A DNA stretch of 39,802 nt from the IMG/VR virus record IMGVR_UViG_3300027736_000097, positions 1 through 39,802 of that record. One strand, 5' to 3'. The notes beneath the pieces were generated by a model that worked only from the letters and a program-made list of their open reading frames with translations, had not been told where the DNA came from and did no database searches. A program made the translations under genes and the position numbers. Below, one piece after another: positions 1 to 39,502 of the stretch (positions are counted from its first letter, which is position 1; every line of letters begins with the position of its first letter). The stretch is from a virus.

Positions 1-127
1 CATATTTATACAGACACCTAAGTAAAGAACCTATCATTAATCTAGAACCATTAGGTAAGATTAAAGATGGGTCAAACTCTTCATCATCTTCTAGTAAGTG
101 GTCAGTTGCTTGGAATACATTATCAAA
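1..127. repeat. Left copy of terminal 127-bp direct repeat
   Basis: The first 127 bases are identical to the last 127 (39676-39802). A repeat of exactly 127 bp is the usual k-mer overlap of a circular assembly, so this marks a closed contig rather than a biological end. The repeat lies inside a coding frame that stays open across the join, which supports circularity. Confidence 0.95.
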
Positions 128-169
128 CTGCTCACCACATTCAGGGCAAGGAGGTACCTTGTTATCCAT
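1..169 (-). CDS. Conserved phage protein with CPxCG knuckle, N-terminal part (gene crosses contig join)
   Basis: The ATG lies at 169-167. The frame runs off the left edge of the window and continues at 39675 down to 39506, giving one 112-aa protein. The N-terminal part seen here has a single zinc-knuckle-like motif (C8-P-E-C11-G) and an acidic stretch around residues 27-33. The start overlaps the stop of the upstream primase gene by 8 nt (ATGGATAA), as expected for translational coupling. The function is not recognised. One CxxC pair is not enough for a full zinc site, so any metal binding would need dimerisation or other ligands. The gene is in the replication operon. Confidence 0.8.
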   Translation of the reverse strand, partial: MDNKVPPCPECGEQFDNVFQATDHLLEDDEEFDPSLILPNGSRLMIGSLLRCLYKY

Positions 170-785
170 TTAGCCCTGCCTTATCTCTTATATAATCAGC
201 ACCATACTTAACATATGCACTGTTCACATCTTCTCCGTCTGGCAACTGCACGATAGTGACGGGCAACTCCCTTGCCAAACTATTGGCAAACTCTTTTCCT
301 GGTTGGTCTCCATCTGCAAATACAAATACTCTTTCAAAGTCAGCGAGTAACCTGGTGTAATGTTTCTTCCAACTGTTAGCACCAGGTACACCGACACAAG
401 GTATACCAATGCAACTAGATAAAGTAACTGTATCAAGTTCACCCTCACACACTCCTATAAAATCTCCCGCTTTTTCTATGTCTAATACATTATACATCTT
501 AGTTTCGGCTCCAGTTAATCCCATGTACTTAGGTTCAACAGCAGGATTAAGAGAACGAAAACGAATATCGACTGTACCAGTCTTGGTAATATACGGTATC
601 GATAACCTTCCTTGGAATTGTTCATGTCCAATCTCAGCCTCCCCTACTACGCCGAATCGTGCCAGTCGTGCCGCTTCCATTGTTATACCTCTGCTTCTGA
701 GGTAATCCTCTGCCTGATAAATGTTTGCCCCGTACCGTAGTGCTGCTTGTCCCAACAATTCCCTCTGCAATTGACTTTGCTTCAC
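162..785 (-). CDS. DNA primase, TOPRIM (catalytic) part
   Basis: This 207-aa protein carries the catalytic TOPRIM fold of DnaG-type primases: the glutamate motif CEGELD at residues 113-118 and the DxD motif in FADGDQPG (D158, D160), preceded by a typical YLRSRGI linker (29-34). It would synthesise RNA primers on single-stranded DNA. The zinc-binding part is encoded upstream in a different frame (634-1023), with a 152-nt overlap. The recognisable zinc half ends, and the recognisable TOPRIM half begins, near position 750, so the two look like one ancestral gene now read in two frames. The GTG start at 785 has a plausible GAAAGG ribosome site about 10 nt upstream, so separate translation is possible. 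A +1 frameshift or a sequence error would also explain the arrangement. Confidence 0.85.
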   Translation of the reverse strand: MKQSQLQRELLGQAALRYGANIYQAEDYLRSRGITMEAARLARFGVVGEAEIGHEQFQGRLSIPYITKTGTVDIRFRSLNPAVEPKYMGLTGAETKMYNVLDIEKAGDFIGVCEGELDTVTLSSCIGIPCVGVPGANSWKKHYTRLLADFERVFVFADGDQPGKEFANSLARELPVTIVQLPDGEDVNSAYVKYGADYIRDKAGLNG

Positions 786-1023
786 GTATGTCTACCCTTT
801 CTTGTTGTGCGACAATTTGTAAACTATTACCTTGGACTCCACAGGCGAAGCATATGAATATGTTATCGTCGAGATTAGCGCTTCCTGATTGATGAGTGTC
901 CGAGTGGAAAGGGCATTTGATATTAGCCTGCCCGTGTTCTTGTCGTATACTCGCTCCATAGTGGATGAGTATTTCTCGTATGTTTGGTAAGTCATTTGCC
1001 TGCCCTCTTAGTCCATTGTTCAA
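634..1023 (-). CDS. DNA primase, zinc-binding (CHC2) part
   Basis: The protein has a CHC2 zinc ribbon: C37-x2-H40, then C58-x2-C61 (CPFH ... CFAC), the DNA-template-recognition domain of DnaG and phage primases. The following stretch, GNSLQIVAQ to about residue 90, is also primase-like. From there to residue 129 the frame becomes low-complexity and Gly/Thr/Arg-rich and does not look like protein; this tail overlaps the TOPRIM frame. The start taken is TTG at 1023 with GGAAG just upstream, since no ATG occurs in frame before the zinc ligands. It overlaps the upstream nuclease gene by 32 nt. The real product is probably about 90 useful residues, or a frameshift fusion with the TOPRIM part. Confidence 0.75.
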   Translation of the reverse strand: MNNGLRGQANDLPNIREILIHYGASIRQEHGQANIKCPFHSDTHQSGSANLDDNIFICFACGVQGNSLQIVAQQERVDIREAKSIAEGIVGTSSTTVRGKHLSGRGLPQKQRYNNGSGTTGTIRRSRGG

Positions 1024-1345
1024 AGTCTTCCACCACCCAAGCCTTGTCTATACCTGCTTGCCTACGTTTAACTACTACAAATTTATATGGTACTTCTTTT
1101 AATCCTCTAGCCTTAGCATAATTCTCTGCCTCTACCTCAGCCTCACGCCAGAACTGTGGTAAGTCTAACTTCTTTGTTGCCTTTAGTTCTAGTATGTTTG
1201 CTGCTCCATCTAAGAAAGCAACTACATCACCCTCATCTTTAGCACCAGCCTTAGTCAATCGTTCTGCTAATATATCTTTAAGACGTAGCCATTTAACTAC
1301 ACTAGTCTCAAAGGTAGCACCCTTGCGTTTACCATAACTACTCAT
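992..1345 (-). CDS. Holliday-junction-resolvase-like PD-(D/E)XK nuclease
   Basis: A 117-aa protein with the layout of archaeal Hjc-type and phage resolvases: an N-terminal RKGATFE segment (E13), GDVV (D40), then E53-L-K55 as the ExK metal site, followed by an aromatic helical region. Such enzymes cut four-way junctions during replication and recombination. The frame could start at ATG 1357, but ATG 1345 is preferred because the family begins just before the basic KRKG motif and because it gives an 8-nt overlap with the preceding stop (1338). It is coupled to the neighbouring replication genes. Confidence 0.75.
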   Translation of the reverse strand: MSSYGKRKGATFETSVVKWLRLKDILAERLTKAGAKDEGDVVAFLDGAANILELKATKKLDLPQFWREAEVEAENYAKARGLKEVPYKFVVVKRRQAGIDKAWVVEDFEQWTKRAGK

Positions 1346-1820
1346 GTGTGAACCCATCTATTGGTATACGCCAACCATTTATATACTTGTCATAGTATTC
1401 AGGCTTCATGAACTCTTCGGGATATGCAACACCAAATATTTCTACCTTAGAAAAATATTCTAGGTCTAAACATTTAGTTCCAACTATAACCTTCTCTTTA
1501 TCCTTACCCCAGAATGCTATACTATCTTGAGTTCTAATAGACCTTACCTCTAGGTTTTCTCCAACATCAGGTAGTGGGTAACGCTTCTTATGTAAAGCAT
1601 TTGGATACCAAGGATTGTTCCAAGCAAGATTGTAATGCTTAGCAACAGCCCACTCACATACATTAGCCCGTATGTTAGCGTTAATCTCAGGCTCTAGTCT
1701 GCCGTCTGCTTTACCTTGTGCATAGTTAGGTTGGTCAGTAGAACCAAACTTAGTTAGCCATCTCTCTACGGCAAGCATAGTGCATACTCTAACCTCATCT
1801 TTATTTAATTCTATTATCAT
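1338..1820 (-). CDS. Uncharacterised replication-operon protein, possible nuclease fold
   Basis: A 160-aa protein. The middle has a conserved-looking segment (NIRANVCEWAVAK, residues about 49-61), then PDVGENLEVRS (about 84-94), which resembles the core of a PD-(D/E)XK nuclease with an acidic residue, an E-V-R in place of ExK, and an upstream glutamate. It lies between the helicase and the resolvase with a 1-nt TAATG overlap on the helicase side and an 8-nt overlap on the other. The nuclease assignment is tentative because the catalytic lysine is replaced by arginine. Confidence 0.7.
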   Translation of the reverse strand: MIIELNKDEVRVCTMLAVERWLTKFGSTDQPNYAQGKADGRLEPEINANIRANVCEWAVAKHYNLAWNNPWYPNALHKKRYPLPDVGENLEVRSIRTQDSIAFWGKDKEKVIVGTKCLDLEYFSKVEIFGVAYPEEFMKPEYYDKYINGWRIPIDGFTHE

Positions 1821-2602
1821 TAATTATTTTCTGGTATATCATCAACGAACATATACTCAGGATTGAATGCAATCCAAGTCATCAATCCTCCACCTGCGTC
1901 TGCTCTTCCGTATCTGTTTTTGACTGGAGCAACACCCATTGAAGTTCCGACCACACCAAGTGTACATATAAGCGCTGGTAGTTGTGCCACCTTACCCTGG
2001 ATAGCAGAGCGTGGCTGACACGGTGTCCCAAGCACAGCCTCACTAGTGTGATGAAGAACGACAACAGCCGAATTAGTAGCACGAGCAAGATATTTTAACT
2101 CCTTCATTATCGCTCTCATTGAAGCGAACTCTTCACCACCATCGGTGGCTACATCCATTAGGTTATCTACTATAATAAGTGTAGGAGAACAACCCCATAG
2201 TTCTTCAAAGGCTTGGACTTCTTCATCAATATCTTGTAATGTCGGTGCTGATTCAAAGGACCAGACTATATGGCTACTCTTGGATAGAGTAGCCTTAGTC
2301 CAACCAACATCAGAATGTAGCATCCCTTCTACATCTGTTTGGTTTTTTCCAGAAATCATAGAGGCTAAACGCATAGCCATAGTATGTGCATTAGTATCAG
2401 CAGATATGTAAAGTGTTGGCACCTTCATCTTTAATGCTAATGCTAGTGCAAGTGTTGACTTTCCAACTCCTGGTGCTGCTGCAAACATAGAAACTTCAGA
2501 CCGACGGATGATAATCTTGTTTGATTCAAATGCTTTGAAGCACGATGGTAATGGTTCCCCACCAATACTGGCACGGCCAACGCTTCTGACAAGTGTACGC
2601 AT
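1820..2602 (-). CDS. RecA/DnaB-like replicative helicase ATPase
   Basis: A 260-aa, single-domain RecA-fold ATPase. Walker A is AAAPGVGKST (residues 41-50), Walker B is LIIVDN (D146), and a HHTSE segment follows at 184-188, where DnaB/RepA-like helicases have their motif H3 region. There is no DnaB N-terminal domain, as in RepA-like and AAA_25 phage helicases. Its position just upstream of a primase supports a helicase loader or helicase role at the fork. A clear AAAGGA ribosome site precedes the ATG at 2602. Confidence 0.85.
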   Translation of the reverse strand: MRTLVRSVGRASIGGEPLPSCFKAFESNKIIIRRSEVSMFAAAPGVGKSTLALALALKMKVPTLYISADTNAHTMAMRLASMISGKNQTDVEGMLHSDVGWTKATLSKSSHIVWSFESAPTLQDIDEEVQAFEELWGCSPTLIIVDNLMDVATDGGEEFASMRAIMKELKYLARATNSAVVVLHHTSEAVLGTPCQPRSAIQGKVAQLPALICTLGVVGTSMGVAPVKNRYGRADAGGGLMTWIAFNPEYMFVDDIPENN

Positions 2603-2645
2603 CCTGGTTCCTTTCTAGTTCCGTAAAAAGATTTATGCCAGTCTT

Positions 2646-3044
2646 TTAATTTACTGGCTTGCATTGGTCAGATGTTCCTTGTGGAGATGGACAAGCCCAG
2701 AAAGCATATGGTTTACCACTTGCCTTACTGATTCCTTCTCGCCATATACGGGCTCCGTGCTTGCACACTGGCGCTGCTGTACCTGATACTGCTGACACTG
2801 GGGTTGGTGCGGAGTAACTCGAGGGCCTTGTGCCTGTAGTGGAACTCGATGTCGATAAAGGGTTTAAGTTATATGAACCCACTATCTTCTGCTGAGTAGC
2901 AGCAATCTGTGTGGAGTAATCTCCTACGCCCTCTAACAATACTGATAGTTCATCAGCAGTATTAGCACGTACGTTTATCATATCACCTGATGGTGTCTTG
3001 TAGGAAACCTGTAGTTTCCAGTCTTCATTTGCCATTTTTCTCAT
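2646..3044 (-). CDS. Uncharacterised protein with C-terminal zinc-ribbon-like motif
   Basis: A 132-aa protein in three parts: an N-terminal folded region (residues 1-55), a Ser/Thr/Pro-rich linker (about 60-90), and a C-terminal region with C94-x-H96, C118-P and C128 in a KxSGKPYxFWxCP context typical of small zinc ribbons. The position between nuclease and helicase suggests a nucleic-acid-binding accessory role, but no family is recognised. The start chosen, ATG 3044, overlaps the previous stop as ATGA; a second ATG at 3035 is possible. Confidence 0.7.
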   Translation of the reverse strand: MRKMANEDWKLQVSYKTPSGDMINVRANTADELSVLLEGVGDYSTQIAATQQKIVGSYNLNPLSTSSSTTGTRPSSYSAPTPVSAVSGTAAPVCKHGARIWREGISKASGKPYAFWACPSPQGTSDQCKPVN

Positions 3045-3646
3045 TTCTTCGAGGTGAACTGACAGTGTTCTGTAAGTCCACAACGATTGCAGTTGTTTGT
3101 GTTAGGAATAAATATACCAGCCTTGCGTGCCTTATCAAAGGAGGCGACAAGGTATTCAAGTTTCTCTTCTGTATAAGTACTAAGGTCTACCATACTAGAG
3201 GTACCTTCTTGTCTTGCCATCCAGTAAGCACCGTACTTAATATCTATACCAAAGATTTGTTTGAGTCCTAGTTTATAGAAGCCAAGTTGTAAAGTACTAG
3301 TTGGGGTTTGTTGTGAAGTCTTGAGGTCAACCACGACCAACTCACCATTGACTTCAAACACTCTATCGAGAACCATCTTCACTGGTATGCCAGCAAAAAT
3401 AGGAGTTAACCCCAACTCTATGGCAGGTGCGCCTTCAGGAGTATACCAAATTTTCCAATCTGTATTAGCAATACGCCAATTAATATAAGACTGAACCCAT
3501 TCAGGTCCTGTCTGTTGCCAGAAATCTACATTCTCCCTATCAGGAAATGCTTTAGATGTTCTACCACCAACACGAGCAAATGTTAAGTCAACACCTTCTG
3601 CTTCTTTAAGCCAAGCACTATCCCATAAACTTTGAGCGGTGCTCAC
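3041..3646 (-). CDS. RecB/Cas4-like PD-(D/E)XK nuclease, catalytic C-terminal part
   Basis: A 201-aa protein with the nuclease core of Cas4/AddB-like exonucleases: D94 (MVLDRVFE), then VVVDLKTS with D107 and K109, then the QLGFY motif (Q120 to Y124). The end has C186-x2-C189-x5-C195, three of the four cysteines of the Fe-S staple in this family. The fourth cysteine and the N-terminal helix are missing here but are present in the 63-aa product of 3851-4042. The start is GTG 3646, inside the 3' end of the intervening 78-aa gene (29-nt overlap). It probably processes DNA ends during replication or recombination. Confidence 0.85.
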   Translation of the reverse strand: MSTAQSLWDSAWLKEAEGVDLTFARVGGRTSKAFPDRENVDFWQQTGPEWVQSYINWRIANTDWKIWYTPEGAPAIELGLTPIFAGIPVKMVLDRVFEVNGELVVVDLKTSQQTPTSTLQLGFYKLGLKQIFGIDIKYGAYWMARQEGTSSMVDLSTYTEEKLEYLVASFDKARKAGIFIPNTNNCNRCGLTEHCQFTSKK

Positions 3647-31230: not shown

Positions 31231-31240
31231 AGCACCCCTA

Positions 31241-31271
31241 TAAACGGTTATTAAACGGTAAGGTTAAACGG
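31241..31271. repeat. Three TAAACGG direct repeats before the terminase gene
   Basis: TAAACGG occurs at 31241-31247, 31252-31258 and 31265-31271 (starts 11 and 13 bp apart), just upstream of the terminase ATG. Such short iterons can be an operator or a packaging (pac) recognition site; the terminase HTH is an obvious candidate binder. Confidence 0.6.
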
Positions 31272-31284
31272 ACAGAACTTACCC

Positions 31285-31290
31285 ATTATA
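31285..31290 (-). promoter_or_regulatory. Late-operon -10 candidate
   Basis: TATAAT on the minus strand in an AT-rich zone, about 55 nt before the terminase ATG. The -35 area (ATAACA at 17 nt spacing) is poor, so a phage factor such as the sigma-like protein or WhiB may be needed. Modest evidence. Confidence 0.4.
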
Positions 31291-31318
31291 TATATTATTA
31301 TAATAATTGTTATATTAT

Positions 31319-31350
31319 GAGTTGGCGGAATTAAAGGGAGCCAACTCCCT
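31319..31350. repeat. Overlapping inverted repeats (alternative hairpins)
   Basis: GAGTTGGC (31319-31326) pairs with GCCAACTC (31340-31347). AGGGAG (31335-31340) pairs with CTCCCT (31345-31350) with only 4 nt between. The second uses part of the first, so the two hairpins exclude each other, a layout seen in attenuators. On the minus strand the smaller hairpin is followed by TTTAATT. Confidence 0.5.
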
Positions 31351-31378
31351 ATATATGTATTTACTATTACATATATAG
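31349..31378. repeat. Perfect 11-bp-arm palindrome in AT-rich DNA
   Basis: CTATATATGTA (31349-31359) and TACATATATAG (31368-31378) are perfectly complementary with an 8-nt loop. It lies 6 bp from a DnaA-like box. It could be an operator or part of an origin unwinding element. Confidence 0.6.
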
Positions 31379-31384
31379 ATAACC

Positions 31385-31393
31385 TGTGAATAA
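31385..31393 (-). promoter_or_regulatory. DnaA-box-like site (TTATTCACA)
   Basis: TTATTCACA on the minus strand fits the relaxed DnaA box TTATNCACA. It is next to AT-rich palindromic DNA, the usual setting for a host-dependent phage origin. A single box gives only weak support. Confidence 0.45.
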
Positions 31394-31547
31394 CTGAAAA
31401 GCGAACAACTTAGGGTGATATATTTTTTATAATGTCCGATTTATACTAGTTTGTATATATATTACTGGGCTAATATAACAGAAAATTATTACCTAATACT
31501 ATGTATGCCCCCCGCAAGCGAATTAACACACCCCACCCCAAATGTAG

Positions 31548-31561
31548 ATTTGTCGACAAAT
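31548..31561. promoter_or_regulatory. 14-bp perfect palindrome (operator candidate)
   Basis: ATTTGTCGACAAAT is fully self-complementary, as expected for the operator of a symmetric repressor dimer. No repressor gene was identified in the genome, so the binder could be host-encoded. No promoter hexamers are obvious within it. Confidence 0.4.
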
Positions 31562-31750
31562 AGACTTATAGACCTATAATCCTACCTATACTATATGTCC
31601 GATTAGTCCTTATTGTGGTATGTGTTGTGTTTTATACCCTTATGAGTTAAATGTGCGGTTGCTGACTATCTGCCCTAATAAATACCAATAATCCTATTTG
31701 CCCCTATTGTCCTATTCCCCTCTCACCCTATACATTACTCACCAGTAATA

Positions 31751-31779
31751 GAACAAGTGTTCGTGTGATGTAGTTCACA
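31751..31779. promoter_or_regulatory. CRP/GlxR-like site with adjacent palindrome
   Basis: TGTGA-N6-TCACA lies at 31764-31779, the full CRP-family consensus (GlxR in actinobacteria). GAACA-AG-TGTTC (31751-31762) is directly upstream. The CRP-like centre is about 64 bp before the predicted start of the first early promoter, within range for activation. Confidence 0.55.
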
Positions 31780-31788
31780 TAATATAGT

Positions 31789-31829
31789 CGGCGTGTCGTA
31801 TTGACTTTATTCTTATGAGGGTGTAAAGT
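31789..31829 (+). promoter_or_regulatory. Early promoter P1 with upstream CGGCGTGTCG box
   Basis: -35 TTGACT (31801-31806), spacer of exactly 17, -10 TAAAGT (31824-31829). CGGCGTGTCG (31789-31798) lies 2 nt before the -35. The same box and spacing recur at P2, which supports both being real and co-regulated. Confidence 0.65.
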
Positions 31830-31896
31830 TATCTTTATCAGGTTAGTAATATCCTGATACAACTAAATAAAGAACTTAAAATATATTTATCACTTA

Positions 31897-31937
31897 CGGC
31901 GTGTCGGTTTGATATTACGGCGGTGATGGTGTAGAGT
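31897..31937 (+). promoter_or_regulatory. Early promoter P2 with upstream CGGCGTGTCG box
   Basis: -35 TTGATA (31909-31914), 17-nt spacer, -10 TAGAGT (31932-31937), with CGGCGTGTCG (31897-31906) again 2 nt upstream of the -35. It is 108 bp after P1 and would drive the rightward early operon from 32067 on. Confidence 0.65.
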
Positions 31938-32066
31938 AAGTTCTTACAAGGTTAGACTACTAGTAAGTAGCCTAGTGAGATACGCCCCTAGTAATCGGCG
32001 GTTGCGCTGATGGGATACTAACTAGACTACTCACTAGTAGCCTAACCCCTAGTGAAAGGTGAGATA

Positions 32067-32387
32067 GTGCCATATAACCCTTATGGGGTTAGTGGTAGCA
32101 TTATCACACCACCAAGAGATGTGCGTTCTGCCCCTGCGTGGTTAGGTTCACGCAGTAAGCGGTTTAGTAATCTAGTGGTGCGTGATAAGTCGGGGAATAT
32201 AATCGTAGCGGTAGAGGATAGCGTTGCGGTTAAGTTAGCAAGGCGGACAATTAAGAACGCCAAGCCTAAACCCCTACCTGCTACCCTTAGACCCTTAACT
32301 GAACTAGAACTACGCAATATGAAGGCGCAAGAACGCTTGGAAGTTATGGCTAAGTTATTGGCTAGACCTGCCGATAACTACCTATAA
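32067..32387 (+). CDS. Uncharacterised basic early protein
   Basis: A 106-aa protein from GTG 32067, chosen over GTG 32052 because AAAGGTGAG lies at the right distance before it. It is basic (SRSKRFSNLVVRDKSGN, ARRTIKNAKPKPLP), has a beta-hairpin-like middle (NIIVAVEDSVAVKLA) and a helical C-terminus. First gene of the rightward operon. No family is recognised; early takeover genes of this kind often bind nucleic acid or host enzymes. Confidence 0.7.
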   Translation: MPYNPYGVSGSIITPPRDVRSAPAWLGSRSKRFSNLVVRDKSGNIIVAVEDSVAVKLARRTIKNAKPKPLPATLRPLTELELRNMKAQERLEVMAKLLARPADNYL

Positions 32388-32398
32388 TTAGTTAGATA

Positions 32399-32449
32399 GT
32401 CCTAGCCCGTAGGTCGGGTGTGCATGGGGTTCGATACCCCACTAGGACA
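32399..32449 (+). ncRNA. 51-nt tRNA-like element without an anticodon arm
   Basis: GTCCTAG (32399-32405) pairs perfectly over 7 bp with CTAGGAC (32442-32448). Between them TGGGG-TTCGATA-CCCCA (32425-32441) is a canonical T arm with a TTCGATA loop. Only 19 nt (32406-32424) remain between acceptor 5' strand and T arm, enough for one small hairpin (CCCG-TAGGT-CGGG) but not for both D and anticodon arms. A discriminator A at 32449 follows; CCA is present at 32452-32454, two bases out of register. This could be a tRNA mimic or a decayed tRNA. An attachment site made from the 3' end of a host tRNA is possible, though no integrase is present. Confidence 0.6.
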
Positions 32450-32453
32450 CGCC

Positions 32454-32474
32454 ATAAGTCAGAACTTGACTTAT
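32454..32474 (+). promoter_or_regulatory. 8-bp inverted repeat overlapping a -35 box
   Basis: ATAAGTCA (32454-32461) and TGACTTAT (32467-32474) are perfect arms around 5 nt. The right arm contains most of the -35 TTGACT of the next promoter, so a bound protein here would block it. In RNA it would also be a hairpin after the tRNA-like element. Confidence 0.5.
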
Positions 32475-32494
32475 AGCCCTGAGTATGCTATACT
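32466..32494 (+). promoter_or_regulatory. Strong sigma-70-type promoter
   Basis: -35 TTGACT (32466-32471), 17-nt spacer, -10 TATACT (32489-32494) with a TG two bases upstream (extended -10). This is the best vegetative promoter seen in the window. It reads into the small zinc-finger gene at 32516. Confidence 0.8.
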
Positions 32495-32515
32495 TAGGTA
32501 TAACAAGGAGTGAAT

Positions 32516-32623
32516 ATGGGTTATTATACTAAAGTGTATGATAAAACTTGCGTGGAGTGTGGTGCTAAACTATACTCTGATATAGCGATTATCCTTCACA
32601 CTTGCGACAAGGACAAGGAGTAA
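32516..32623 (+). CDS. Tiny zinc-finger protein (35 aa)
   Basis: A 35-aa protein with C12-x2-C15-G and later H28-x-C30, a plausible mini zinc finger. AAGGAG lies 5 nt before the ATG, and the strong promoter is just upstream, so it should be highly made early in infection. The function is unknown. Confidence 0.7.
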   Translation: MGYYTKVYDKTCVECGAKLYSDIAIILHTCDKDKE

Positions 32624-32625
32624 AG

Positions 32626-32775
32626 ATGGATATAATTAACCTAGAGATAGATGGTAATTCCACCTATCTAATGACCTACTTAGGTGATTTATATTTACCA
32701 CATAGAACACTAATTCTATTACTGGTAATTGGTATCACCCTAAGAAGTATCAAGTTATTCAGAGAACGCAGATAG
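32626..32775 (+). CDS. Tiny single-helix membrane protein (49 aa)
   Basis: A 49-aa protein with one hydrophobic helix (LILLLVIGITL, about 29-39) followed by a basic tail (RSIKLFRERR). It has its own AAGGAG. Start is 2 nt after the previous stop. It probably sits in the host membrane with the basic end inside. Function unknown. Confidence 0.65.
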   Translation: MDIINLEIDGNSTYLMTYLGDLYLPHRTLILLLVIGITLRSIKLFRERR

Positions 32776-32776
32776 T

Positions 32777-32956
32777 ATGGAAGGTATAGTGATAGAACTT
32801 ACTAGAGATGAACTAGAACTTATTAGAACTTCTCTTAGAACGCAAGCAAATTGGTATGATAGAGGCGACTTTAAGGGTATGGCTATCACCACCGATTTGC
32901 TAAAGAATAAGATTAGTGATATAATAATCGAAGTGTCAGGTAAAGTAAGGAGTTGA
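32777..32956 (+). CDS. Small helical protein (59 aa)
   Basis: A 59-aa, charged, helical protein (ELTRDELELIRTSLRTQANWY; DLLKNKISDIIIEV). The ATG at 32777 is 1 nt after the previous stop; a GTG at 32791 with GGAAGG before it is possible. No family recognised. Confidence 0.6.
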   Translation: MEGIVIELTRDELELIRTSLRTQANWYDRGDFKGMAITTDLLKNKISDIIIEVSGKVRS

Positions 32957-32957
32957 T

Positions 32958-34151
32958 ATGTCTGATGAAGTAGAGTTGCTAGCATGTGCTAATTGCTCTA
33001 GTGATTATAGACCTGATGAGTTAGCCACCACCCCTAATGGTGATATGCTATGCTCTGACTGCCGTATTTATTGTGAAAGATGTGAGGAATATGGGTGGGA
33101 AGATGGGTCTAGGCATGTAGAGGGTGTCGGTATGTATTGTGAAAGATGTGCCGATAACTATACATTTTGGTGTGAGAGTTGCGAAAGCACCTACTCAGAT
33201 AACGAAAGTAGTTATCACTTAGAGGATATTGGTTCTTATTGGTGTGATGGGTGTTGCTCTGATAATGCTATTTGGTGCAATAGTTGTGAAGTGTATAACC
33301 GAGATAGTTGCGGTAGTTGTGAGAGTGGTGGACAAGTTTATCCATACTCTTACAAGCCTGTGCCACACTTCTATGGTGAGGATAAGAATAACCTACACTT
33401 TGGTATAGAATTAGAGATGGAGATTAGAGATGGTGAACTAGTAGATAGTTCAGAATATATTATGGAGATGATGGGCGACTTCGTCTATCTTAAAGAGGAT
33501 AGCAGTATAAATAGTGGCGGATACAAGGGGTTCGAGATGGTATCCCACCCCGCTACACTAGAATACTTTACTAACAATAGGAACTTATGGACTACCTTAG
33601 ATTATCTAAAGAGAGTTCACAATGCTAGGAGTTGGGACGCTAAGAGTTGCGGACTTCATATTCATATAAGTCGTAAGGGCTTTAAGAGTGGGGCGCATAC
33701 ACATAGGTTCTTATCTCTTATCTATAAGAACTCTGATAAGATGATGAAGTTAGGTGGTCGCAAGTCCACCTATGCTAAGTTTAATGATGTGTATATGTAT
33801 GATGAGTTCGATAGACCATACTTTACACTAGCGCACAAGGTTGCTCACCCTAGCAACAGTATGACCGAGAGATATTCTGCGGTGAATACGCAGAACGAGA
33901 ACACACTAGAACTCAGGTTCTTTAGAGGAACTATGAACCCTAGTGGTGTTCTTAGTGCTATACAATTAGCACATGCTACAGTAGAATACACAAGGGACTT
34001 AACCCTATCTGATGTAAAGATGGGTGCGCTAAGTTGGGAGTGGTTCTCTGACTGGATACAAGCCAATAATGGTATGTATCCTGAACTCTATATGCGTATG
34101 AGTAGAGTGGATAAGTTAGTAGTAGATAGTAAAGAGTTAGTCAATGCGTAA
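32958..34151 (+). CDS. Phage amidoligase (COOH-NH2 ligase) with N-terminal zinc-knuckle array
   Basis: A 397-aa protein. Residues 10-121 have eight CxxC-type pairs (C10-C13, C32-C35, C39-C42, C61-C64, C72-C75, C96-C99, C107-C110, C118-C121), which can bind about four zinc ions. Residues 145-397 are an amidoligase of the glutamine-synthetase/GCS fold: FGIELEME (148-155), ED-SS near 181, the FEMVSHP glutamate (193), CGLHIHIS (231-238) and TLELRFFRGT (317-325). The family uses ATP to join a carboxyl group to an amine. The next gene is a class II glutamine amidotransferase, so the amine may be ammonia from glutamine. The substrate is unknown; the zinc array may choose it. Confidence 0.85.
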   Translation: MSDEVELLACANCSSDYRPDELATTPNGDMLCSDCRIYCERCEEYGWEDGSRHVEGVGMYCERCADNYTFWCESCESTYSDNESSYHLEDIGSYWCDGCCSDNAIWCNSCEVYNRDSCGSCESGGQVYPYSYKPVPHFYGEDKNNLHFGIELEMEIRDGELVDSSEYIMEMMGDFVYLKEDSSINSGGYKGFEMVSHPATLEYFTNNRNLWTTLDYLKRVHNARSWDAKSCGLHIHISRKGFKSGAHTHRFLSLIYKNSDKMMKLGGRKSTYAKFNDVYMYDEFDRPYFTLAHKVAHPSNSMTERYSAVNTQNENTLELRFFRGTMNPSGVLSAIQLAHATVEYTRDLTLSDVKMGALSWEWFSDWIQANNGMYPELYMRMSRVDKLVVDSKELVNA

Positions 34152-34162
34152 GGGGGTAAGAT

Positions 34163-35014
34163 ATGTGTTTGCTAGTGGTGTGTAATCCTAATTCCACACC
34201 GAGTAAAGATGAACTTACTACTGGTGCTTGTAAGAACCCACATGGATTTGGGTTCGCTATAGATACTGGTAGTGGTATTATATCTGAGCGCAGTATGTCC
34301 GCTAAGAAGTCTATCAGCAGGTTCTTAGAACTTAGAGAGCAGTATCCCAATGGCTACGCTATGTGGCACGCTAGGTATGCTACTCATGGAGTTAAGAACG
34401 AACTTAATTGCCACCCGTTTAGGTTAGCAGGTGAGCACGATACTTACTTAGCACATAATGGTATGCTAGATATTCTAATACCTAAAGATGATAAGCGTAG
34501 CGATACTAGAATTATGGCAGAGGAATTACTGCCACGATTAGGTGGTGTGTCTGCGTTAGATGATGATTATCTATATGATATGATAGGTTCATGGGCTAGT
34601 GGTAGTAAGATAGCAGTTATGACCAATGACCCTAGCGCACAGTATAAGATTTATATTATCAACGAGAGTGCTGGTAGTTGGGACGACAATGGTATATGGT
34701 GGAGTAATACTTCATACAAGCCTACGCCTACCATTACCTATGCCGACGAACCTAGTGTGTATGATATAGTAGTAGCAGATAGACACTTCCAACCTACTGA
34801 CTATGAGGATAACAAGTTTGAGTGTCCTAATTGTGAGGCTTTGATAGACCTATGGGAGAGTGAACTCTACTGCTTGATGTGTGAGTGTTGCTTTGATTGT
34901 AGCGCACAGTTCTTAGACTGCCTATGCTACAACCCTAAGTCTAAAGATATGCTTAGAGATGAGTATGGATTTATAAATGAGAAGTGGTATAGTAAAGAGC
35001 CACTTGACTTCTAG
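34163..35014 (+). CDS. Class II glutamine amidotransferase with C-terminal zinc ribbon
   Basis: A 283-aa protein. Cys2 would be the N-terminal nucleophile after Met removal. MWHARYATHG (68-76), NCHPF (82-86) and LAHNGML (96-102) are the GAT-II signature segments, with an Asp in RSDTR (114). The last 65 residues hold many Cys pairs (CPNC, CLMCECC, CSAQ, CLC), a separate zinc ribbon. It releases ammonia from glutamine for use by the amidoligase encoded 12 nt upstream. The paired zinc modules on both proteins suggest they bind each other or the same target. Confidence 0.85.
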   Translation: MCLLVVCNPNSTPSKDELTTGACKNPHGFGFAIDTGSGIISERSMSAKKSISRFLELREQYPNGYAMWHARYATHGVKNELNCHPFRLAGEHDTYLAHNGMLDILIPKDDKRSDTRIMAEELLPRLGGVSALDDDYLYDMIGSWASGSKIAVMTNDPSAQYKIYIINESAGSWDDNGIWWSNTSYKPTPTITYADEPSVYDIVVADRHFQPTDYEDNKFECPNCEALIDLWESELYCLMCECCFDCSAQFLDCLCYNPKSKDMLRDEYGFINEKWYSKEPLDF

Positions 35015-35020
35015 AATTGG

Positions 35021-35060
35021 TAGTGAGTAATCACTATCATATGCTTGGTAAATTACCAAG
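35021..35060 (+). promoter_or_regulatory. Two adjacent palindromes in a 70-nt gap
   Basis: TAGTGA/TCACTA (35021-35036, 4-nt loop) and CTTGGTAA/TTACCAAG (35044-35060, 1-nt centre) lie between the amidotransferase and the next gene. They could be an operator pair or hairpins limiting read-through. No T run follows. Confidence 0.5.
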
Positions 35061-35084
35061 TAGATAATAACGAAAGGTAATACA

Positions 35085-35372
35085 ATGTCAACCACGACAA
35101 CACAAGTAGAGGATTACTTGGCTAGTATATCACTAACACTTGCTGACTTAGCAAACGAACTGGCAACAGTTCAGTTTGATGTGGCTAGTGTTAATGGCTA
35201 TGAGCCTAAGGGAACTATACTTAAAGCACTACCAACACAGACTAGGTTCAAGCCTAAGTCCGTATGGGTATCACTAGGTAATGGCAAGTATAAACACTTG
35301 ACTGGTGAGAAGGGCTTAATCGCCAAGCACTCACGCCTAGAAGGTTATACTTCAGTAGTATTCCGCCCATAA
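35085..35372 (+). CDS. Uncharacterised early protein (95 aa)
   Basis: A 95-aa protein with a helical N-terminus (VEDYLASISLTLADLANELATVQFD) and a basic beta-like C-terminal half (PKSVWVSLGNGKYKHLTG). GAAAGG precedes the ATG. It starts a second early subset after the palindromes. No family recognised. Confidence 0.65.
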   Translation: MSTTTTQVEDYLASISLTLADLANELATVQFDVASVNGYEPKGTILKALPTQTRFKPKSVWVSLGNGKYKHLTGEKGLIAKHSRLEGYTSVVFRP

Positions 35373-35434
35373 TAAACTAGTTAATTGTGGGTGGGGTAAC
35401 CGCCCCACCTACACCAACACAGAGAGGAACTACA

Positions 35435-35602
35435 ATGGAAGTAAGAACAGACCGCAGATTTTACAAGGACATTATGTTATGGGAAGCGTCATTAAAAAAG
35501 TCTGATGTTGCTGACCTAAGTGATGAGCAGGTAAAAGAGTTAACAACAGAACTAAGCGTAGCATTACAAGGTATATTATGGAACTATGGAATACATAACT
35601 AA
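35435..35602 (+). CDS. Uncharacterised small early protein (55 aa)
   Basis: ATG 35435 is preferred to the upstream in-frame start at 35387 because AGAGGA lies 7 nt before it and the extra N-terminus (PPTPTQRG) looks non-coding. The 55-aa product is charged and helical. Its end overlaps the WhiB gene by 17 nt, so the two are probably co-translated. Confidence 0.6.
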   Translation: MEVRTDRRFYKDIMLWEASLKKSDVADLSDEQVKELTTELSVALQGILWNYGIHN

Positions 35603-36002
35603 AAAACCATATACTGTATTCGATTATAAGTTTGATGACACAGACTTAGATTTAAGCAAGGGGTTATGCGTTGGAAGTGATGACCCTGATATGTGGTTCG
35701 CTGGTGAAGTAGACATAACTGACCCTAATAGTTCTGTTAATGGTAGTTCACAAGCAACTAAACTAGAAGTAGATAAGGCTATCAAAGCACTATCTGTATG
35801 TAAGAATTGTCCTGCTAAAGATGACTGCCTAGAACTAGGCAAGCATGGTCAGCAACTATACTTCGGTATATATGGTGGCACTATGGCAGGTGAAAGATTG
35901 GCTATGATGGGCAGAGTTACAAAGAACTCTCTTGTCAAGCAGAAGGTATCGTTTGCCCATAAGGTCAGACGCACTATAAAAGAGAGGGGATATAATGGAT
36001 AA
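35586..36002 (+). CDS. WhiB-like Fe-S transcription factor
   Basis: A 138-aa protein with the four WhiB cysteines: C28, C72-x2-C75-x5-C81. DPDMWF (33-38) follows the first, and GIYGGTMAGER (94-104) corresponds to the family G-[VIW]-GG turn that contacts sigma region 4. A basic tail follows (HKVRRTIKERGYNG). WhiB proteins carry a [4Fe-4S] cluster and act on the host RNA polymerase through the main sigma factor. An insertion of about 15 residues between C28 and C72 makes it longer than the typical 80-100 aa. It is the clearest marker of an actinobacterial host and probably a switch for phage transcription or against superinfection. Confidence 0.9.
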   Translation: MEYITKKPYTVFDYKFDDTDLDLSKGLCVGSDDPDMWFAGEVDITDPNSSVNGSSQATKLEVDKAIKALSVCKNCPAKDDCLELGKHGQQLYFGIYGGTMAGERLAMMGRVTKNSLVKQKVSFAHKVRRTIKERGYNG

Positions 36003-37429: not shown

Positions 37430-37551
37430 TGAGTAATATTCTATTTAGATTTTTATTCTTCATCGCTCCCGTTCTTATTCCCCTTATCTGTATCGGAATG
37501 TATGTCAGTTTGTTCTATATTATCTTCTTCACTCTCGTTTTTATCGGGTGA
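37429..37551 (+). CDS. Possible hydrophobic 40-aa protein antisense to the sigma-like gene
   Basis: ATG 37429 overlaps the FmdB stop (TGATGA), with GGGAGG just before it. The product is almost wholly hydrophobic. However, 99 nt of it lie antisense to the acidic 3' end of the sigma-like gene, and acidic codons read backwards give hydrophobic ones, so the hydrophobicity may be a by-product. Kept as a low-confidence call because of the good ribosome site and coupling. Confidence 0.3.
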   Translation: MSNILFRFLFFIAPVLIPLICIGMYVSLFYIIFFTLVFIG

Positions 37552-38163
37552 ATCTATATCACGGAAAGGTTTATACCCACCTATTTTATTTATCAGCCTA
37601 CTAATGGAACGCTTAAGTCTCATTCGTGCGGCACTATCAGTACCAAGTTCTAGTATGTTTGCCATCTCGCCGAAGTCTAGGTTCTCTGCGAAGCGTAAAG
37701 ATATAATATTTCTATCTTCTTTGTTTAACTTCCAGTAGCCTGAGTCAATCTCTAACATCATAATAGTTAGGTTGCCACCTTCGGCAGGGGCAGATGGCTT
37801 ACCAGTAAATCCAAGATTTAATTTGTGTGTAACACCATACTCACCACGCAATACGGGTGGTAGTAATGCTTCTATAATTTCAGAATCATAATAATGTAAG
37901 TCAGACATGTCGTAGCCAAGGCTCTTAGCCTTCCATCTCTGACAGTAATCTAATGCTTGGTTGCGAAGTGAACGATAGATTAAGTTCTTTGCATCCTTAT
38001 CCCCTATTGCTTCCCAATCTTTAAGTTTGTTTGGGTGCTCAGCAAACCATTGGTACAGCGATTGCTTTATATCTTCTCGTTCTACCATACTAAACTTCCT
38101 ATGATAGTCCGATGCAACCGCTGTTACAATGTAATCCCACTTCTCAATACTATTCCAATCCAA
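37453..38163 (-). CDS. Sigma-70-like transcription factor
   Basis: A 236-aa protein. Residues 1-80 resemble sigma region 2 (YIVTAVASDYHRKFSMVEREDIKQSL, then RNQALDYCQRW). Residues about 145-196 are a region 4 HTH (LNKEDRNIISLRFAENLDFGEMANILELG, then basic helix). The last 35 residues are an acidic tail (ESEEDNIEQTD). The start is TTG 38163 with GGAAG just before it. It could direct host polymerase to late phage promoters, which lack good -35 boxes. It is the last gene of the replication operon. Confidence 0.75.
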   Translation of the reverse strand: MDWNSIEKWDYIVTAVASDYHRKFSMVEREDIKQSLYQWFAEHPNKLKDWEAIGDKDAKNLIYRSLRNQALDYCQRWKAKSLGYDMSDLHYYDSEIIEALLPPVLRGEYGVTHKLNLGFTGKPSAPAEGGNLTIMMLEIDSGYWKLNKEDRNIISLRFAENLDFGEMANILELGTDSAARMRLKRSISRLINKIGGYKPFRDIDSPDKNESEEDNIEQTDIHSDTDKGNKNGSDEE

Positions 38164-38904
38164 TTACTTCCACACCTTCTTATCAAATACGAATGAACCA
38201 TCCATATTAACTGGAACTAATTGTGGGGTAATCTTATTCCCATCAACATATAAAACACCGAATCCTTTATGCCATGTAAACAATCCACCTCTGATATATT
38301 TAGCGAACTTAAAGTCCATTAAACAACCAGTCTCTAGACCCCATATAGTCTTAGGTGTGCCACCAAAGTATGACTGAGTGTAATGTGTCAAGCCAGCACG
38401 GTGCGTATGACCACACACAACGGACATACCAGCACGCTTGGCTAATCCAAGTGCAGTAGCACCAGCAGTAGGTTGCACATTACCTTCATCACCATGTAGT
38501 AACAACCAATTCGGTGCTAGTTCATATGGTCTCTCGTGATATGTAATACCTAAGTCATCAAGTTTTAAGAAGTTCTTTAACTCTAACTCAGGTAAACCAG
38601 CAAGACCAGGTGCTCTCATTCTAATTGTATTAAACAATCTATCTGTATGATTACTTCTAATCATATGTTTAATCTTTAATGATTCAAGCACACGATGAGT
38701 CTCATCTCTATCTCTAGCAATAGACTTCTCGTGTTCTAGGTCAGTACCCTTACTCCATTTTGAGATAGTCTGCATATCCATCTCATCCCCAACAGATACT
38801 ACCTCGTCAGGTTTATATTTCTTTATGAAATTAGACAGCGCTGAGACTGCCTTCCTGTCGTGGTATGGTACCTGTAAGTCAGACACGCAGACTATAACCT
38901 TCAT
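38164..38904 (-). CDS. Calcineurin-like metallophosphoesterase
   Basis: A 246-aa protein with the full metal-site set: SDLQVPYHD (D9), VGDEMD (D40), RSNHTD (N85, H86), LLHGDEG (H137) and CGHTHR (H166, H168). The family includes phosphatases, nucleases (SbcD-like) and nucleotidases; the phage substrate is unknown. Being in the replication operon it may act on nucleotides or DNA ends. Confidence 0.85.
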   Translation of the reverse strand: MKVIVCVSDLQVPYHDRKAVSALSNFIKKYKPDEVVSVGDEMDMQTISKWSKGTDLEHEKSIARDRDETHRVLESLKIKHMIRSNHTDRLFNTIRMRAPGLAGLPELELKNFLKLDDLGITYHERPYELAPNWLLLHGDEGNVQPTAGATALGLAKRAGMSVVCGHTHRAGLTHYTQSYFGGTPKTIWGLETGCLMDFKFAKYIRGGLFTWHKGFGVLYVDGNKITPQLVPVNMDGSFVFDKKVWK

Positions 38905-39047
38905 TATCCCACCATTCTAGAACGACTTAACCTCTGTATAATACGTGTGAGTTCTTTTATACTTTCCAGATTTTCTACTGGATTTTCTTGTAGTAAAGAA
39001 TATATTTTTTGATTAGTTAAATCTATTGATTCCTCTATTGTTTTCAT
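38904..39047 (-). CDS. Small helical protein (47 aa)
   Basis: A 47-aa, charged, helical protein (ESIDLTNQKIYSLLQENPVENL, then RIIQRLSRSRMVG). AAGGGG precedes the ATG; the stop overlaps the next start as TAATG. No family. Confidence 0.65.
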   Translation of the reverse strand: MKTIEESIDLTNQKIYSLLQENPVENLESIKELTRIIQRLSRSRMVG

Positions 39048-39056
39048 TAGTTCCCC

Positions 39057-39140
39057 TTAATTTATTCCCAGTAATGTTACAAGGAAAGATAGTAAAGATA
39101 AAAGTTCTAATTGAAACATCATTAACATTAATTCAATCAT
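39057..39140 (-). CDS. Tiny hydrophobic peptide (27 aa)
   Basis: ATG 39140 overlaps the stop of the Nmad1-like gene as ATGA. The 27-aa product is a single hydrophobic helix (LLSLLSFLVTLLG). Translational coupling supports it, but length alone gives no proof. Confidence 0.45.
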   Translation of the reverse strand: MIELMLMMFQLELLSLLSFLVTLLGIN

Positions 39141-39502
39141 TGGTCCCATTGCCCCCTTAGTACTAGCAATCCTATGATTGCATAGTTTGCCATGTCCTTG
39201 AAAGAATCTTCAAGAGACTCGTGTTCAGGATTAGATTGGCTATCATATAAGTTATTTATACGAGCCAACTTATCATGCATACGAACCCTGAGTCCATTCA
39301 ATGCACCACCTGGTGCTTCAGATATATTCTTTGGTCCGTAATCTTTATGTTTAGACAATAATAAATCTAATAGTTCTTGAAAGGTTTGTGCTACGGCTGA
39401 TTCAAAAGAGATACTGTCAGGGTAACTACGAGTTTCCCATCCATCTTCTTTGCCTGTGTTATATGGAAACCTTGATTTTCCAAGTGGGTTATAATCTGCC
39501 AT
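39137..39502 (-). CDS. Nmad1/DUF1599-like nucleotide-modification-associated protein
   Basis: A 121-aa protein. KHKDYGPKNISEAPGGALNGLRVRMHDKLARINNL and SLEDSFKDMANYAIIGLLVLRGQW match the Nmad1 (DUF1599) family, found near enzymes that modify phage DNA bases or nucleotides. It has a strong GGAGGAG ribosome site. No matching base-modifying enzyme was recognised elsewhere in the genome. Confidence 0.75.
   Translation of the reverse strand: MADYNPLGKSRFPYNTGKEDGWETRSYPDSISFESAVAQTFQELLDLLLSKHKDYGPKNISEAPGGALNGLRVRMHDKLARINNLYDSQSNPEHESLEDSFKDMANYAIIGLLVLRGQWDQ

Follow-up and report, generated by a model that had tools for sequence, protein, structure and literature searches.

A freshwater phage carries, side by side, the genes for an amidoligase and a class II glutamine amidotransferase (GAT-II), both with cysteine-rich modules. 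Do the two enzymes work together, and what would they modify? The DNA analyzed here (hereafter, the window) is IMG/VR record IMGVR_UViG_3300027736_000097, positions 1 to 39,802 (39.8 kb), and all coordinates follow that numbering.

A gene pair at an accessory site

The source of the window is a freshwater virus of actinobacteria. In profile scans of the window ORFs we find a WhiB protein, a sigma factor, a terminase, a portal protein, a major head protein, a CHAP endolysin, a primase, a DnaB-type helicase and an exonuclease. The terminase shares 77% identity with its counterpart in Planktophila phage LanE43AprE7 (OX376640; hereafter, E7), a cultured relative whose host is 'Ca. Planktophila' (PMC10202952), so the host of the window virus is probably a 'Ca. 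Nanopelagicales' bacterium. The E7 genome is broadly syntenic with the window but lacks the amidoligase-GAT-II pair; where the window has the two genes, the terminase-WhiB stretch of E7 is filled by an ArdA gene, which marks the pair as accessory. Among terminase-selected relatives with enough flanking sequence, amidoligase, GAT-II and WhiB stand at this place in 24, and other genes in 4. The pair is therefore common yet dispensable, and its accessory site keeps a fixed position within the rightward gene block, which is probably early.

The terminase-WhiB interval itself is variable. It covers 31231-35585 in the window and 38377-39112 plus 1-3157 in locus L272. It holds the amidoligase pair in the window, ArdA and small ORFs in E7, and another gene block, including a 230-amino-acid HETAH protein (a possible metallopeptidase), in L316, L328, L332 and L346. 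In 92 of 110 related viral loci, the next gene after the two encodes a 95-amino-acid protein with no assigned function, which in this phage group may be a third component of the block. The window also encodes a metallophosphoesterase (PHROG 221), genes for which occur in OM43 phages related to MEP401/402 (PMC10580990), and a DUF1599 protein ("nucleotide modification associated domain 1"), a homologue of which is present in E7.

Both genes of the pair are under purifying selection and functional, since dN/dS is about 0.1-0.25 for each against relatives at 75-90% protein identity. The two ORFs are separated by 11 nt, one fewer than the 12 originally given. Their best PHROG matches are phage families without a name (22302 for the amidoligase, 6e-35; 25883 for GAT-II). 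The PADLOC defence models gave no match for the pair, and no specific NCBIfam family was found for it.

Table 1. Positions in the window of the two genes, their motifs and other genes mentioned in the text
Feature	Position	Strand	Remarks
Amidoligase_2 / GS-superfamily carboxylate-amine ligase	32958..34151	+	397 aa, ATG; Pfam, PHROG 22302, Foldseek
Zinc module 1, C10-x2-C13-x18-C32-x2-C35	32985..33062	+	95-100% conserved, viral as well as cellular homologues
Zinc module 2, C39-x2-C42-x18-C61-x2-C64	33072..33149	+	96-100% conserved in both groups
Zinc module 3, C72-x2-C75-x20-C96-x2-C99	33171..33254	+	97-100% conserved in both groups
Zinc module 4, C107-x2-C110-x7-C118-x2-C121	33276..33320	+	C107/C110 kept by 93-94% of viral and 5% of cellular homologues
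Metal-binding strand G149-I-E151-L-E153	33402..33416	+	E151, E153 invariant; aligns with E. coli YbdK 'GIELEM'
HxH motif C231-G-L-H234-I-H236-I-S-R	33648..33674	+	H234/H236 invariant; aligns with YbdK 'GQHVHVG', GlnA 'GSGMHCHMS'
ExR motif T316-L-E318-L-R320-F-F-R	33903..33926	+	E318/R320 invariant; aligns with YbdK 'TVEVRV', GlnA 'RIEVRF'
Class II glutamine amidotransferase (GAT-II, Ntn)	34163..35014	+	283 aa, ATG; Pfam GATase_4, Foldseek
Cys2, predicted N-terminal nucleophile after Met removal	34166..34168	+	98-100% conserved
Glutamine-binding motif R71-Y-A-T74-H75-G76	34373..34390	+	GlmS 'RWATHG' match; R71, T74, G76 invariant
Oxyanion-hole motif H98-N99-G100	34454..34462	+	Invariant; GlmS 'HNG' match
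Cysteine cluster near the C-terminus (C221-C255), probably zinc ribbon(s)	34823..34927	+	93-94% conserved in viruses, lacking in most cellular homologues
95-aa protein	35085-35372	+	Follows the pair
WhiB	35586-36002		
Sigma factor	37453-38163		
Metallophosphoesterase	38164-38904	-	PHROG 221
DUF1599 protein	39137-39502	-	

The two enzymes and their cysteine modules

The product of the first gene matches the Pfam family Amidoligase_2 (PF12224; E-value 1.8e-8, 35 bits against a curated cut-off of 22). Its AlphaFold2 model (mean pLDDT 88) was compared with the PDB using Foldseek; the matches are YbdK (1.4e-5), plant glutamate-cysteine ligase (GCL; 1.8e-4), GmaS, Dop, PafA and glutamine synthetases, all with E-values of 1e-5 to 1e-3 and with modest TM-scores of 0.3-0.4 against structures of the GS family. 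In profile comparisons, the ExE, HxH and ExR motifs all align with E. coli YbdK (E-value 6.8e-5, probability 63%), and HxH and ExR align motif for motif with E. coli glutamine synthetase (GlnA), the latter at a probability of only 6%. We counted residue conservation over 102 viral and 79 cellular-contig homologues (n = 181). Eight residues (E151, E153, E193, H234, H236, N310, E318 and R320) are conserved in 100% of them, D181 in 99-100% and R305 in 98-100%. Since the ATP-site residues are near-invariant and the motifs align, the objection that the site might be missing falls away. Pfam, Foldseek, the motif alignments and the residue count agree with the original prediction of a GS/GCS-fold amidoligase behind eight CxxC pairs; its metal/ATP site is intact in sequence, and ligase activity is predicted.

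The CxxC pairs number exactly eight, starting at residues 10, 32, 39, 61, 72, 96, 107 and 118, and form four modules (Table 1). The first six pairs, that is, the twelve zinc cysteines of modules 1-3, are 95-100% conserved in the same viral and cellular-contig homologues, so the array is not a matter of chance. Being common to phage and Firmicutes enzymes, these three modules are an integral part of the amidoligase subfamily. Module 4, by its conservation, is mainly a trait of the freshwater phage group. A sequence search of the PDB with the amidoligase profile returned only weak matches of LIM/FYVE type, and LIM and Prok-RING_2 match a Firmicutes homologue below the cut-off.

The product of the second gene matches GATase_4 (PF13230; E-value 2.9e-6, 26.9 bits against a curated cut-off of 23), while its GATase_6 match (PF13522) falls below the cut-off. 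For most of residues 1-180 the pLDDT of the model exceeds 90, and Foldseek places it in the Ntn fold (GlmS at 8e-7, PurF, EgtC). The class II signature is complete: an N-terminal Cys nucleophile, RxxTHG, HNG and SDT. Family, motifs and fold all bear out the GAT-II assignment made earlier, and we regard the protein as a genuine class II amidotransferase with predicted glutaminase activity. The zinc ribbon proposed for its C-terminus stands in part. Nine cysteines are there (221, 224, 237, 240, 242, 243, 246, 253 and 255), and their spacing points to one or more probable zinc ribbons in a region where the model is weaker (block pLDDT 50-86 over residues 221-270, and below 50 at 190-211 and 268-283). 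The tail occurs mainly in the freshwater phage group, with Marvin and some few others besides; MEP402, MW202733 and almost all of the cellular-contig partners lack it. Because it is mostly limited to the phage group, the zinc tail on GAT-II is optional.

Pairing in phages and mobile elements

How constant is the pairing? GAT-II lies directly downstream of 184 of 188 viral amidoligase ORFs, a count to be taken as an upper view because the set is redundant and partly chosen with GAT-II. With identical amidoligases removed, GAT-II follows directly in about 105 of the 110 distinct viral loci, so the objection that the two genes might not stay neighbours in relatives falls away as well. The named records with the pair are Marvin and its relatives, MEP401/402 and MW202733. 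In Clostridioides phage AR1086-1 we find the amidoligase and detect no GAT-II beside it. The pair is also adjacent in Firmicutes, Ignavibacteria and other contigs. In a scan of genome contigs selected by the amidoligase alone, GAT-II is adjacent to 75 amidoligases and not adjacent to 9, and 3 lie at contig ends. In four of the nine (L241, L242, L245, L267), a second amidoligase lies in tandem downstream; in three (L199, L247, L248), GAT-II is part of a fused or overlapping ORF; and in L266 a protein with a GATase_6 match comes next; only L259 is truly without GAT-II.

The tandem cases are Ruminococcus-type contigs in which two amidoligases precede a single GAT-II, an arrangement that suggests heteromeric or dual-target versions. 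The fused ORFs of L199 (681 amino acids) and L248 (723 amino acids) were considered as proof of a complex and rejected, because an apparent frameshift separates L199 from the near-identical L195 and because the Cys2 of GAT-II has to be free. We likewise set aside the co-variation of zinc cysteines in the two proteins, which follows the phage/cellular split and perhaps reflects one historical event.

In Clostridia and other bacteria, the pair is found in mobile-element-like surroundings. Resolvase-family proteins are present in about 40 of 80 bacterial loci, mostly two to four genes downstream, and other neighbours include integrases, relaxase-like genes, DUF960 and DUF3846. The Firmicutes pairs (e.g., on Agathobaculum and Flavonifractor contigs) resemble the window in zinc modules 1-3, in all catalytic residues and in the adjoining GAT-II; they differ in that the GAT-II is of another type without the zinc tail, often with a resolvase after the pair and DUF960 before it. 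Two further contigs may be mentioned. In a Thermoproteota archaeon MAG (L256, 1-2799), a 129-amino-acid ORF lies between a zinc-array amidoligase and a GAT-II that has four CxxC pairs. Within a Rhodobacteraceae MAG, contig L190 (RFQY01000240.1) encodes a 78% identical amidoligase; we treat it as probably a mis-binned phage contig rather than a Rhodobacteraceae gene.

The difference in GAT-II type between phages and Firmicutes, where hits are weak and the tail CxxC pairs are lacking, suggests that selection acts on the pairing itself, and near-obligatory pairing even with a different type of GAT-II favours co-operation of the two enzymes. The further step from zinc on both enzymes to a joint complex is weakly founded, as the amidoligase array is shared with Firmicutes and the GAT-II tail is mostly missing elsewhere.

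The locus had also been put forward as an undescribed system. The same gene pair has in fact been annotated or discussed in several phages. In Marvin (Marvinvirus), gp105 and gp106 are adjacent and in the same order, are about 31% and 33% identical to the window proteins, and have a Cys-rich N-terminus on the amidoligase and a Cys-rich tail on GAT-II; unlike the window enzyme, the Marvin amidoligase has only four CxxC pairs before the catalytic domain and a long C-terminal extension, and the phage is a different one. Pairs occur in the OM43 phages MEP401/402 and over 30 metagenomic genomes (PMC10580990), both genes are listed in LUZ24-like phages (PMC3517423, PMC3890496), and a seven-gene peptidoglycan modification cassette contains GGCT and ATP-grasp (PMC5498523). 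Amidoligase-GAT-II modules were noted by Iyer 2009, as quoted in later papers, and the amidoligase systems of Iyer, Aravind and co-workers are relevant here, as the neighbourhood of amidoligase and GAT-II is present; of their partners, ATP-grasp, a second COOH-NH2 ligase and GGCT were not found with the models used, and no Ntn peptidase, another link drawn originally, was seen beyond GAT-II itself. The "peptidoglycan modification" cassettes of phiEco32, LUZ24 and PSA-HP1 likewise have both enzymes in a phage non-structural region. In contrast to the window, these cassettes (and StenR_269) carry ATP-grasp, GGCT and a second amidoligase, and the zinc array is a feature of the window amidoligase. 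The 39.8-kb record has no match to PF14395, PF14243, PF18299 or PF06094 (GGACT, COOH-NH2_lig and two R2K ATP-grasp models). The pair is therefore a module of a kind already noticed in phages, here in a minimal, zinc-rich two-gene variant stripped of ATP-grasp and GGCT. Our literature search, whose coverage is incomplete, found no description of a zinc-array amidoligase subfamily, and it found neither biochemistry nor a demonstrated substrate for the phage amidoligase-GAT-II family.

What the pair may modify

Our leading reading is that the two genes form an accessory module, probably an early one, with which the phage converts a carboxylate of some host target, perhaps cell-wall peptide, into an amide; we give this reading a probability of about 0.45. 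GAT-II, with Met1 removed, would split glutamine at Cys2 and release ammonia, as its intact motifs suggest. The amidoligase would bind metal and ATP at E151/E153/E193/H234/H236/E318/R320 and, given its GS/GCS-type site, would phosphorylate the target carboxylate; ammonia passing over from GAT-II might then displace the phosphate and leave an amide. The zinc array may position a macromolecular target or the partner enzyme. By analogy with MurT/GatD, the most likely target would be a carboxylate of host cell-wall peptide (D-Glu or diaminopimelate), and its amidation might alter the wall during infection, e.g., to exclude other phages. MurT/GatD is a glutaminase with an ATP-dependent ligase that amidates wall peptide and has a zinc ribbon on the ligase MurT (PMC6113224), so zinc on such a ligase has precedent. 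It is an analogy of working and not a relative: MurT/GatD combines a Mur ligase with a GATase that has an internal Cys94-His189 site, and the window proteins fall into Amidoligase_2/GS and GAT-II instead, by both family and fold. PMC10580990 quotes ideas on the cell wall and superinfection for phiEco32 (Iyer 2009) and, for Marvin, on interaction with the host. The mobile-element distribution of the pair, its absence from E7 and the ArdA gene in the corresponding E7 interval fit a role in host conflict. Against amidation of the wall, nothing in the window points specifically to it, and a large multi-zinc array would be unexpected if the substrate were a small cell-wall precursor.

Two rivals are serious ones, tag-and-trim chemistry and modification of proteins. 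The sequence data also allow a gamma-glutamyl ligase with GAT-II as an EgtC-like gamma-glutamyl hydrolase. The amidoligase would then join an amino acid (e.g., gamma-Glu) or a peptide to a target amine, and GAT-II would remove or transfer the tag, as in EgtA/EgtC and BtrJ/BtrG. EgtC is among the GAT-II fold matches, YbdK and GCL are among the best amidoligase matches, and gamma-glutamyl cyclotransferase is added in related phage and mobile-element loci (PMC5498523, PMC3485107). However, GlmS and PurF, true ammonia donors, are better GAT-II matches, and with the models used the window is without GGCT, R2K ATP-grasp or a second COOH-NH2 ligase; we find such tagging rather unlikely. Modification of proteins, in which the zinc array would recognise a host or phage protein and the amidoligase would make isopeptide or amide bonds on it (cf. 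PafA-Pup), would account for Dop and PafA among the fold matches, for the conservation of the twelve cysteines from phages to Firmicutes, and for the LIM, FYVE and RING resemblances. These resemblances are sub-threshold and may rest on cysteines alone; GS, GCL and YbdK score equal to or above PafA; and an unsystematic look at the neighbourhood identified no Pup-like protein next to the pair. This explanation we consider unlikely. Its more specific form, in which the array recruits targets for a protein amidation or isopeptide-tagging machine of actinophages and Firmicutes mobile elements, ranks lower still; if true, as few as two genes would suffice for the post-translational modification of a defence or cell-wall protein of the host.

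Other authors have annotated such pairs as auxiliary metabolic genes (PMC10580990, PMC10945688), which would have them make a small amidated metabolite or move glutamine nitrogen for the phage. A strongly conserved multi-zinc array is not expected of a small-molecule enzyme, and the module is found in mobile-element-like loci too; we hold this salvage role to be improbable. An anti-restriction or DNA-modifying role, with the zinc modules binding DNA, draws on the ArdA gene of E7 and on the DUF1599 gene of the window. Yet E7 has the DUF1599 homologue without the pair, and the scanned window ORFs include no base-synthesis partner, so that we give this last possibility very little weight.

Amidoligase-GAT-II pairs are frequent in phages and mobile elements. 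Our analysis shows the module to belong to a widespread family of freshwater actinophages and to be absent from the cultured ones. The compact core of zinc array, amidoligase and GAT-II, conserved across phyla, makes the question of what phage amidoligases modify testable with two proteins.
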